From Saprospiraceae bacterium (GTDB taxonomy: Bacteria > Bacteroidota > Bacteroidia > Chitinophagales > Saprospiraceae): DNA of 44,883 nucleotides. A model generated the notes under the pieces. That model ran no database searches, was not told where the DNA came from, and saw only the letters and a list, made by a program, of their open reading frames with translations. Location: NCBI GenBank assembly GCA_019634045.1, contig JAHQWA010000354.1, positions 1-44,883 of the forward strand, read 5' to 3'. Below are positions 37,931 through 41,073 of this stretch, piece by piece. The position numbers and the translations under genes were made by a program. Every line of letters begins with the position of its first letter. Position 1 is the stretch's first letter.

Positions 37931-38039
37931 GGGAGAAGTTTTATTGCTGCGAATGAATGTGTTTCCCTTTTCTTTTTGCTCAGCGGCATCAGTATTGCCA
38001 CTAATATGCGTTTTACCATAGATCAATTTTGACAACAGA

Positions 38040-38074
38040 AGCTGCCGTTTAGCGTGTTTACGGCAGCTCTTTTT
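38040..38074 (+). terminator. Orphan intrinsic terminator
   Basis: Stem AGCTGCCGT (38040-38048) with ACGGCAGCT (38060-38068), 11-nt loop, then CTTTTTATT. It lies 273 nt after the T9SS gene stop and has no nearer plus-strand gene, so it ends either a long 3' untranslated region or a small RNA. Confidence 0.75.
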
Positions 38075-39006
38075 ATTGATGCTATTATGGATAGTAAATA
38101 GGAAAGTAGGCGATTGGACGTACATGCTGGCCGGTATACTGCGAAAATAAGACAGGCTACAAAGTAACCCATACTATTTCCGCACTACACCGAAAGGGGC
38201 TGAATGTTTACCCCCCTTTCCAACCAGGAGGCGGTCTTAAGTAGTAGCAGCGTTGTTGGGTTCTCAAGGAGAGTAATAGCGTACCTATTGCCGATTATTA
38301 AAATGACTTAAGCCATTTCTCAAACCGGCAACAGTTTCAAAGCTTAATATGTTAACGAACGACACATGAGGCACAATTTTAATAGAAAGTTGTATCTTAA
38401 ACCAATATTTTCTAAAAAAGCAGGCCTGCAATTTAAATAGCGCATGTCTCTAACTACGTTAGTTCCGTGGAAAGAAACATTTAAAACAATTACTTCCTAA
38501 AAAAGAAAGTCGTATCTAGAAAAGAACCCGGGGATCAATCCGGGTCCCTACGCATGTTAAAACAAACTTTTTAAATATATTTAAAGATAACAGGATCGGC
38601 TCTTGAAAGCTAAGACAAAAAAATAGGTTTTCACAAAAAAACCAAGCTCTCTTCAACAGTAGTCAATTTAATATCAGCTATTTAGGCAATAAAATTTCCT
38701 AAGAAAAAAACTACTTTTCTTCTATTTTTATATCTTCGCAAATAATACTACTGTTGATGATGCTACGATAGCTCCATCAATCTCCGTTTAGAATAGACTT
38801 GTGTTTTCTTTTTGTCGGCTAAATACTATTCGACGAAAGCAAATAACGAGATAAGGTGGGGATTATGCAAAGACAGTTTTATAAACCTCCATAAGAAATT
38901 TTAGATAACAAAGCAGCTTACTTGCTCATAATCAAGAAGAAGCATCTAAAAAAGTCCTTAAATTAAATTAATACATTCTCATTCTCGCCTAACAACTATA
39001 TTACTC

Positions 39007-40464
39007 ATGCTTAAATATAGGGCCATCCAAAATCTACAGAATCTAAACAAAAAGGACCTTTCCGAATTAAACAAATGGCTAAAACCAGGCTGGGCGAACA
39101 GTAACAAGAAGCTTTTTGAGCTTTTTGAAGTCTTACGGAGCTTCTATCCCACCTTTACATCTCAGAAGCTTACCCTGCAACACTTACATAAAAAACTCTA
39201 TCCTGCTAAAAGCTTCAAGGAAAAAGACTTGCTTAATCTACTCTCAAAATTATCCTTAGCTATAGAAGATTTTTTAGTCCATCGACACCTTCGAGGGAAT
39301 TCAGATTTATACGCGCTTATTCTATTAGAAATAAATAAAAACCGGGCCATTTCAAAAAAAAAAGAAGCAAAACAGGTTGACAATCAGATATTAAACATTG
39401 AGAAACGCCCCATAAAGTCGATAACGGATTTGCAAGAACTTATTAGACTCAACAAAATCAAGGCAGCAACCATAAACCCCAAAAGTGGTGACACAGGTAA
39501 AAATCCTTTTCTACTAAAGCTAAACAAGTACTTGGATCAATATTATACTACTTCAAAAGCTAGAAACGCAATGGAATTGCTGGAGATGGAGAGAAAGTTT
39601 GGCGAAAAAACCGATAGAACTCCGTGGTATGAGGAAGTACCAGCCCATTGTAAATCTCTTCCTGCTGTCCGATTTTATGAACTATATGAAAAGGCTGGAA
39701 ATCCAATCACTAAAGAGCAATTCAGGCAACTCCAGGCCCTCTTCTTTCAAATATATGACAAAATCGACTCAAAGGATCAAAGGAATATCTATCTCCTATT
39801 GGTCAACTCTGCTGCTAGAATCACGAATCAGAGGATTACTGAAATACTTCAAGAGCTCATAGAACTTAACCAATTAGCTATTCGAGAAGGTTTTATTCTT
39901 GAAGACAATTTGATCACACCTCATTCCTATGTAAATGTGATTAATGTAGCCTGTCAACAAAAGCAATTTACTTTTGCCCAAGGTTTTCTGGAAAGCCACA
40001 CCCAATTCCTACCGCCCAATATGCAGCAGGATGGTATGGATTGGGGAAGGCTATTTATCGATTACAAGCAAAATGCCCCAAATGCTTTTCAAAAAGCCAA
40101 GAACCTTGACAAGCACAAGCGAGCTTATACTGTGTTTTCTTTAAGAATTAGGGTGCTAATCACGCAAATTCTTTTTGATGCTTATCAAAAGGATTTATAC
40201 CAAGCTGATGATCGTTTTGAATTTCACGTCGAGGCTTTTGAAAGAAAACTCTTAAGAGAAAAGAAGTATCCCAAAAAGCACTTAGAAGGTCTCAAGACGT
40301 TCCATAAATATTGCAAAGCTCTTGCCAGCTATTTTCCAGCTTTCCGTCTAACTGAAGTAGAAGCGGATTCTCTTCGCAAAGAAATCAGTAAAGAAGGGCA
40401 AATTCATGCAAAGCCTTGGCTTATGAAGAAAATAGCAGAAATGGAAAAAGGAGACCATCGTTAA
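39007..40464 (+). CDS. All-helical protein of unknown function
   Basis: 485 residues, no signal or membrane segment. I recognise no named domain. The pattern of L-x-x-L-x-K and repeated amphipathic helices (IQNLQNLNKKDLSELNKWLKP, LFELFEVLRSFYPTFTSQKL, LLNLLSKLSLAIEDFLVHRHL) resembles a family of helical, TPR-like proteins common in Saprospiria-type genomes, whose N terminus says that a protein unit ends in F-L-x-x-x-x-L. The sequence is very Lys-rich and its DNA is visibly more A-rich than the flanking genes. A run of ten A residues at 39354-39363 lies within codons for S-K-K-K-E and could cause slippage. The gene has its own terminator, partly inside the coding end. Neighbour: a double-glycine leader peptide on the other strand. 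Confidence 0.75.
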   Translation: MLKYRAIQNLQNLNKKDLSELNKWLKPGWANSNKKLFELFEVLRSFYPTFTSQKLTLQHLHKKLYPAKSFKEKDLLNLLSKLSLAIEDFLVHRHLRGNSDLYALILLEINKNRAISKKKEAKQVDNQILNIEKRPIKSITDLQELIRLNKIKAATINPKSGDTGKNPFLLKLNKYLDQYYTTSKARNAMELLEMERKFGEKTDRTPWYEEVPAHCKSLPAVRFYELYEKAGNPITKEQFRQLQALFFQIYDKIDSKDQRNIYLLLVNSAARITNQRITEILQELIELNQLAIREGFILEDNLITPHSYVNVINVACQQKQFTFAQGFLESHTQFLPPNMQQDGMDWGRLFIDYKQNAPNAFQKAKNLDKHKRAYTVFSLRIRVLITQILFDAYQKDLYQADDRFEFHVEAFERKLLREKKYPKKHLEGLKTFHKYCKALASYFPAFRLTEVEADSLRKEISKEGQIHAKPWLMKKIAEMEKGDHR

Positions 40465-40502: not shown

Positions 40503-40616
40503 CTAAAAAATAATATCCTCTTCGGTAATTCCTCCTTTCACCTGCTTCTGCTCGTTTACATTCAATTCTGCAGTTGAGAAATCTTCGATCGTAATATCTT
40601 TTTGATCTTTTTTCAT
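40503..40616 (-). CDS. Double-glycine leader peptide, RiPP-precursor-like
   Basis: 37 residues from the ATG at 40616. The frame is open to 40745, but the extra 43 residues look non-coding and the natural start MKKDQKDITIEDFSTAEL has the usual Bacteroidota precursor opening. The leader ends in QKQVKGG (Gly28-Gly29), the site cut by C39-type peptidases in peptide exporters, and leaves the short core ITEEDIIF. The layout matches Bacteroidota natural-product precursors with GG leaders (lanthipeptide, graspetide or unmodified types). The core has Thr and three acidic residues but no Cys or Ser, which would favour ester or amide cross-links over lanthionines (inference). No modification enzyme, exporter or immunity gene is in the window. 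Confidence 0.6.
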   Translation of the reverse strand: MKKDQKDITIEDFSTAELNVNEQKQVKGGITEEDIIF

Positions 40617-41073
40617 GACACAATAGATTTTAGGGAACTGTAAAGGCGCTTGACCTGTACAGACCATGTTTGAAAAATGGTTAATGATTACCCTCCGAAG
40701 AGGGAAAGCAATCCATTCCCTAAGAATCATGTGCACCTGATCCAAAGGCTGCTACTCTGCGTGAGTGAGAAGCTTCTTATCTAGCAAGTATGTAATGGAA
40801 TGTCTTATGTATACTTCAAATGTAGAGAGAAAAACCGCGCCCATCCAGGGCTAACTCATGAACGGTACGTTTGAACCAATGAATCGATTGTTTCGGTGAG
40901 GGAAGCCAATTTTTACGGCATAATAATGTTACTAAAAACCCAGAGCAATAGTCCCAACAAAAAAAAGGGGCACCAGCCACGACAGCCGATACCTCCTATC
41001 CCTATTAAAATAGGGTCCTAATTACCAAATTTTATATCCGATACTGTTCTTTCCGGTTTGCTAGCGATTCCAG
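40617..41073. other. Intergenic region
   Basis: 457 bp between two minus-strand genes. A hairpin CCCTAT-TAAA-ATAGGG (41000-41015 region) lies about 60 nt after the methyltransferase stop, without a T-tract. I see no other gene or repeat. Confidence 0.5.

Follow-up and report, generated by a model that had tools for sequence, protein, structure and literature searches.

A short double-glycine peptide gene and a convergent helical-protein gene as a candidate signalling pair in Saprospiraceae

Results

The short peptide gene

The window analysed in this work is the whole of a 44,883-nucleotide stretch of DNA from a member of the Saprospiraceae, a family of marine bacteria; the source genome amounts to 10.16 Mb in 644 contigs. 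Its features of interest are listed below (G, C and L numbers denote genomes, contigs and loci).

40503-40616, minus strand: propeptide gene with a double-glycine (GG) leader, 37 aa, ATG at 40616 and TAG at 40503-40505
40530-40616, minus strand: double-glycine leader MKKDQKDITIEDFSTAELNVNEQKQVKGG, kept in G001 and G002; putatively cleaved by a C39 peptidase
40506-40529, minus strand: core or C-terminal tail ITEEDIIF, with the motif that paralogues keep (IIxE[ED]I[IV]xx)
40614-40738, minus strand: structured 5′ UTR element with a closing stem that pairs with the start codon and has the invariant AGGTGCACAT (40738-40729) at its beginning
40817-40824, minus strand: putative Bacteroidota -7 promoter box TACATTTG, 208-210 nt 5′ of the ATG in the three orthologues
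39007-40464, plus strand: partner protein and putative receptor, 485 aa, all-helical, with a weakly winged-helix-like N-terminus followed by a predicted alpha-solenoid

The open reading frame that a first-pass annotation had placed at 40503-40616 is indeed there, on the minus strand, and its 37-residue product is MKKDQKDITIEDFSTAELNVNEQKQVKGGITEEDIIF, with the VKGG motif encoded at 40530-40541. Syntenic orthologues that keep both the ATG and the leader exist in two congeneric genomes (G001:C9 and G002:C24, with products MKKDQKDITIEDFSTVELNVNEQKQVKGGEIIEEDIIE and MKKDQKNITIDDFSIIALNVNEQKQVKGGEEIIEEDIID), and codon changes in the leader are mostly synonymous (7 synonymous to 1 nonsynonymous, 8 to 5 and 6 to 5). 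The synteny and the synonymous bias bear out the claim that this is a genuine GG-leader peptide gene, beyond chance. DNA identity at the locus amounts to 90-97% in the 5′ UTR, 83-92% in the leader codons and 62-80% in the core. A longer frame of 80 codons starting at TTG is excluded, since both orthologues have a 1-nt indel 5′ of the ATG that disrupts it, while the ATG and the leader stay aligned. The description of the core as very short holds for ITEEDIIF itself but not for the type, as in related cores the GG and the tail can be separated by as many as about 20 residues of acidic or flexible kind. Elsewhere in the window, about 1.1 kb at 37951-39107 lack a long ORF, have no Rfam match and show 76% identity between the congeneric genomes, which matches coding DNA.

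Export and maturation

Further members of the peptide family, which the first-pass annotation had proposed to look for in the rest of the genome, are present at C540:8221, C540:7866 and C313:255, and so are three C39-peptidase ABC proteins (739-760 aa, over cut-off), all away from the window locus. The peptide has a GG motif and its genome encodes C39 exporters, as expected of a C39 substrate. Since the genome holds these three proteins as well as the related GG peptides on C540 and C313, the proposed service in trans by an exporter encoded elsewhere becomes plausible, though cleavage and export themselves are what we infer. The NCBIfam leader models for RiPPs and lanthipeptides scored well under their cut-offs, with NF038153 scoring 13.6 bits against the short ORF (cut-off 22) and TIGR04149 scoring 16.6 bits against a paralogue (cut-off 25). 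No maturation enzyme was noticed beside the gene among the ORFs of 35-44.9 kb that were inspected and the three neighbours that were scanned.

Two other kinds of GG peptides also occur. Tandem peptides at C64 of the source genome and its orthologous loci (L070, L065 and L075), with poly-Arg and acidic cores ending in DPGCPPDY[DE]x, form a separate orphan family conserved in three congeneric genomes. At L003:1208-1396, a Cys-rich GG peptide (beginning INGGRPGCLSNCSGQPNGTMCCMGG) is flanked by a C39 transporter on one side and a vitamin K epoxide reductase/thioredoxin-like protein on the other.

The 5′ UTR element

From the TACATTTG box, which resembles the TAnnTTTG consensus of the Bacteroidota -7 box, to the ATG, the DNA is 90-97% identical among orthologues and exceeds the ORF itself in conservation. 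The last 125 nt of this 5′ UTR fold well beyond shuffled sequences (z -4.1, -5.3 and -3.8), and the AGGTGCACAT start with a similar fold recurs in two paralogous peptide genes (L057/L060 and L147/L209), making three gene groups in total. In the shared fold, a stem bearing a hairpin and a further hairpin lie inside a closing stem on the start codon, and both keep their pairing as their sequences vary. The automatic consensus on a sequence alignment recovered the closing stem with little covariation, so the inner helices rest on comparison by hand.

The element has no Rfam match at the gathering score or at E ≤ 1, and as DNA its significant matches in 60 genomes are limited to the two orthologues. 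A covariance model run on 40 genomes matched within the genus only, ahead of the three gene groups already known; another match (G003:C1132, E 0.058) has no tail ORF after it and was taken as chance. The shared 5′ UTR is a candidate new cis-regulatory RNA. At L057:8359-9583 the surroundings of a tail-peptide/receptor pair include an ECF-type sigma factor and an anti-sigma-like gene, and at L060 a sigma-like gene adjoins the tail peptide.

The tail and its carriers

The last 8-10 residues of the peptides follow a common pattern of two to three aliphatic residues, one to three acidic ones, two aliphatic ones and a short end. An incomplete list of such tails includes ITEEDIIF, GIISEEEIIT, SIIIEDFLDL, FIIEDFVME, RIVVEDLVVN, GIVVQDDIVN, YIGTEDIVGF, GIIIEEDFIG, FITEEIIDS, YIIIVEEIFD, GIIIEEVVVG, FIIEDIIES, FVTGTDDIITG and PIIIDDMLDG. 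The N-terminal carriers vary. Some have GG leaders, often with an acidic linker ahead of the tail; one is a lipoprotein of 170 aa ending in SIVVEEVIVN (L049/L100); others are Sec-signal proteins ending in IIVEEIIIA or IIIEEVLDL, of which that at L194 has an fn3 domain above the Pfam cut-off; and at L187-L192 the tail sits on bare peptides of 22-34 residues. Most partners of the receptor family have 22-77 aa (37 in the window), and a few carriers reach 110-170 aa. Exchange of carriers is seen even between close sister receptors, which are accompanied by a bare RIVVEDLVVN peptide (L103), the SIVVEEVIVN lipoprotein and a GG peptide ending in GIVVQDDIVN (L147).

Since the tail rides on GG peptides, lipoproteins, Sec and FN3 proteins and bare peptides alike, the constant element is the tail and not the GG leader, and the idea of a core conserved only within a GG family can be rejected. 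In addition, different loci write the same motif in different codons, and the tail is therefore selected as protein. Most simply, the helical protein would recognise the tail, and the remainder would serve for delivery.

The convergent partner

The first-pass annotation regarded the peptide as an orphan and singled out the helical neighbour at 39007-40464 as worthy of attention; the peptide is no orphan, since that neighbour turned out to be its recurrent partner. In the window the two genes converge with their stop codons 38 nt apart, and peptide matches in other genera lie repeatedly in convergent position beside a homologue of the same protein. The partner belongs to a large, paralogous and unnamed family of Saprospiraceae, found by profile search in 55 of 60 related genomes, with at least 19-26 copies in each of the larger genomes (scoring covered the 26 best candidates of each genome). 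Neither Pfam, NCBIfam nor PADLOC has a family for it, and anti-phage defence was set aside for want of a PADLOC match. Within the genus the partner is 49-54% identical, as opposed to about 75-90% for neighbouring proteins, which indicates fast evolution.

The fixed tail pattern occurs in 22 of 126 convergent downstream ORFs, and the remaining three flanks show it in none of 285 ORFs. Of the 99 family genes fetched through the protein, 27 have a tail ORF in convergent position no more than 330 nt away, compared with 2 of 397 others (Fisher p 1.5e-18); some of the 27 are duplicate loci first found via the peptide, and one of them (L198) looks like chance. All eight loci from named genomes fetched by the protein alignment A4 have a tail ORF, and these are the fairest sample, with half of the A4 rows already known to be tail-bearing; the rows of profile A3 were themselves genes adjacent to peptides, so its ranked family list is inflated at the top.

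In the basal part of the family a tail ORF is nearly always convergent at the 3′ end, and in a FastTree phylogeny of 94 proteins it accompanies 29 of the 30 members outside one nested clade of 64 leaves, as against 1 of 58 in the core of that clade, so that the majority of the family stands without an adjacent tail. For the same reason, two GG-tail peptides of the source genome (VILEDIVF and IMVIIEDVVM, C540:7866-8337, L006), which adjoin no helical-family gene, are possible ligands for receptors encoded elsewhere. At E ≤ 1e-30 the family turned up in seven of 247 genomes searched across the phylum, with no tail outside the source genome except one chance-looking ORF. Where pairs exist, receptor distance and tail similarity go together (Mantel r -0.32, p 0.0002, 28 non-redundant pairs), which is supportive rather than decisive because shared descent alone could produce it. 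A second unnamed family of about 510 aa (LREIVQIVNSxRLK...) also occurs near GG peptides, at L048:8971-10497 (plus) and L054:995-2560 (minus), with the similar tails GIIEQDILVG and GVIVVDIIAPL, and is possibly a second receptor family.

Predicted fold of the partner

An AlphaFold2 model of the partner, built on eight sequences, predicts an all-helical solenoid (pLDDT 82.8, pTM 0.67). Foldseek returned nothing for it at E ≤ 0.001, solved structures searched by sequence gave no convincing match, and Pfam TPR models did not match the window protein up to E = 1. The top VIA rows were NprR with NprX (Z 10.0), pLS20 Rap, MalT domain III, apo NprR, RapF and AimR; RRNPP receptors (NprR, Rap and AimR) make up 8 of the 18 best rows with Z 8.7-10.0, tied with unrelated TPR proteins. 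Given that Z below about 13 is common among helical repeats, these model-based matches lie in an ambiguous range and are consistent with kinship to RRNPP receptors without proving it. Modelled by themselves (pLDDT 79.9), the first 119 residues came closest to the DNA-binding domains of CovR, CadC, YycF, ToxR and RegX3 and to sigma region 4, at Z 4.0-5.2; these matches are weak but agree with one another, and on them the N-terminus may be called weakly winged-helix-like.

Discussion

A possible peptide/receptor module

The peptide and the helical protein look like a signalling pair that has not been described before. We give roughly even odds (about 0.5) to their forming a two-gene module of a peptide and a cytosolic receptor that works like the RRNPP pairs of Firmicutes. 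The claim is limited to a similar way of working, as at the sequence level no relationship to RRNPP is detected. In such a module, translation of the propeptide would be regulated, and a mature C-terminal tail of some 8-10 residues would be released from it, here by one of the three C39 ABC transporters, which would cut after the GG and export the tail, and at sister loci by a lipoprotein signal, a Sec signal or other means of taking it out. The freed tail could then re-enter the cytosol of its own cell or of a neighbour and bind in the solenoid groove of the cognate protein (39007-40464 here), and binding could alter the winged-helix-like N-terminal domain, its contact with DNA and hence the transcription of a regulated target. 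The earlier suggestion that the product may be a signalling peptide thus fits the recurrent pairing of tail and receptor and the swapping of carriers, with signalling itself as the part that we infer. Several points count against the module: the window protein has no Pfam TPR match, its structural scores fall where helical repeats can match by chance, the winged-helix rows are weak, the majority of the family stands without an adjacent tail, some tail ORFs are bare peptides with no known export signal, and we know of no proven case of re-import across two membranes in Bacteroidota.

The carriers without export signal (L189, L190, L192 and L103) speak for recognition inside the cell, where the helical protein would be an escort, export or turnover adaptor gripping the C-terminal tail of a cargo, and no signal would pass between cells. 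The tail is invariably C-terminal, and such tails are often bound by solenoids; however, the cargo mostly consists of little beyond the tail, all carriers of a clear type are secretory, and the N-terminal domain, as modelled, looks less like an adaptor for export or proteolysis than like a DNA-binding fold, so that we consider this explanation rather unlikely. It seems improbable, too, that the peptide is an exported antagonist, toxic or membrane-active, with the helical protein as an immunity or antitoxin-like protector of the producer. Bacteriocins typically have GG leaders and C39 exporters, the one-to-one pairing is strict, and conflict would fit the fast divergence of the helical protein; yet the mature parts are short, acidic and non-amphipathic, and lipoproteins and FN3 proteins carry the same tail. 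To our knowledge, immunity proteins of 480 aa, or convergent immunity genes that are not co-transcribed, would be unusual.

The first-pass annotation saw in the peptide the layout of a RiPP or natural-product precursor, which would have to be modified in trans. The weak leader matches are what speaks for this, and every one of them is under its cut-off; next to the gene no modification enzyme was noticed, the orthologous cores EIIEEDIIE and EEIIEEDIID are devoid of Ser, Thr, Cys and Lys, and the logic of RiPP leaders predicts none of the lipoproteins, FN3 proteins and leaderless peptides that bear the same tail. The RiPP reading therefore finds no support, and a precursor of this kind has very poor odds. 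Still less can be said for an incidental ORF, with the 5′ RNA element or a terminator region between the convergent genes as the object of selection: no other DNA of the locus is as well conserved as the 5′ UTR, but dozens of paralogues keep the tail motif in different codons, the leader shows synonymous bias and some paralogues do without the RNA element, which makes this idea scarcely credible.

If the peptide/receptor reading is right, then C39 substrates, lipoproteins, Sec/FN3 proteins and leaderless peptides would be carriers among which a signal tail swaps freely. It is tempting, if tentative and somewhat short of an even bet, to go further and see in the Saprospiraceae an expanded and independently evolved system of peptide pheromones and cytosolic solenoid regulators of transcription, the first RRNPP-like one outside Firmicutes, with the tail swapped among carriers and with some propeptides gated by an undescribed RNA that sequesters the start codon. 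Almost nothing is known of peptide communication in Bacteroidota, peptide signalling through cytosolic receptors having been described from Firmicutes, and the open-access literature gave us no account of a system of this kind from Bacteroidota. A family that reaches at least 26 copies in some genomes has probable ligands encoded alongside, so the pairs are directly testable with synthetic 8-10-mers. On this reading, Bacteroidota peptides called ‘RiPP-like’ for their double glycine may instead be propeptides of signals.

Comparison with known systems

RRNPPA receptors have been reported from Firmicutes, nearly all of them Bacilli (PMC9765709). In size and adjacency of propeptide and receptor the window pair fits what RRNPP_detector looks for (PMC10075063), with a propeptide of 37 aa (10-100 sought) and an adjacent receptor of 485 aa (250-500 sought); the receptor does not match TPR HMMs. 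The chemistry of the tails likewise agrees with that of RRNPP pairs. Because the TPR sequence test fails and no homology is detected, we do not file the pair as RRNPP. It shares with Rap-Phr, NprR-NprX, PlcR-PapR and AimR-AimP a small propeptide adjoining a helical-repeat receptor of 250-500 aa, a putative active part in the C-terminal 5-10 residues and paralogous cassettes within one genome, and such receptors are among the best structural rows of the partner model. It differs from them in its Saprospiraceae host, in the absence of a sequence match, in its convergent genes, and in its GG, lipoprotein and FN3 carriers, where Phr peptides use Sec.

With the Bacteroidota double-glycine precursors of RiPP or bacteriocin-like kind (TIGR04149, NF038153, NF047798) the peptide has in common the leader MKK...L..EQ..VKGG and the putative dependence on C39, whereas its core is too short, acidic and lacking in modifiable residues, and its tail also occurs without a GG leader. 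Leaderless communication peptides (LCP/SIP, recognised by RopB) are adjacent to their receptor, very short and devoid of an export signal (PMC10518010), and the peptides at L189, L190 and L192 resemble them in these respects; however, LCPs have about 8-10 aa, are usually divergent from ropB and occur in Firmicutes only.

The streptococcal Rgg/SHP group III offers a parallel in gene arrangement. Rgg proteins differ in having about 280 aa with an Xre-type HTH, their SHPs leave via PptAB, and no homology to them was found. Even so, the group III peptide gene is likewise convergent with its receptor, overlapping its 3′ end (PMC13361665), and the peptides are acidic and hydrophobic in both cases, the tails described here resembling such known pheromones as DIIIIVGG and EGIIVIVVG (PMC13361665).
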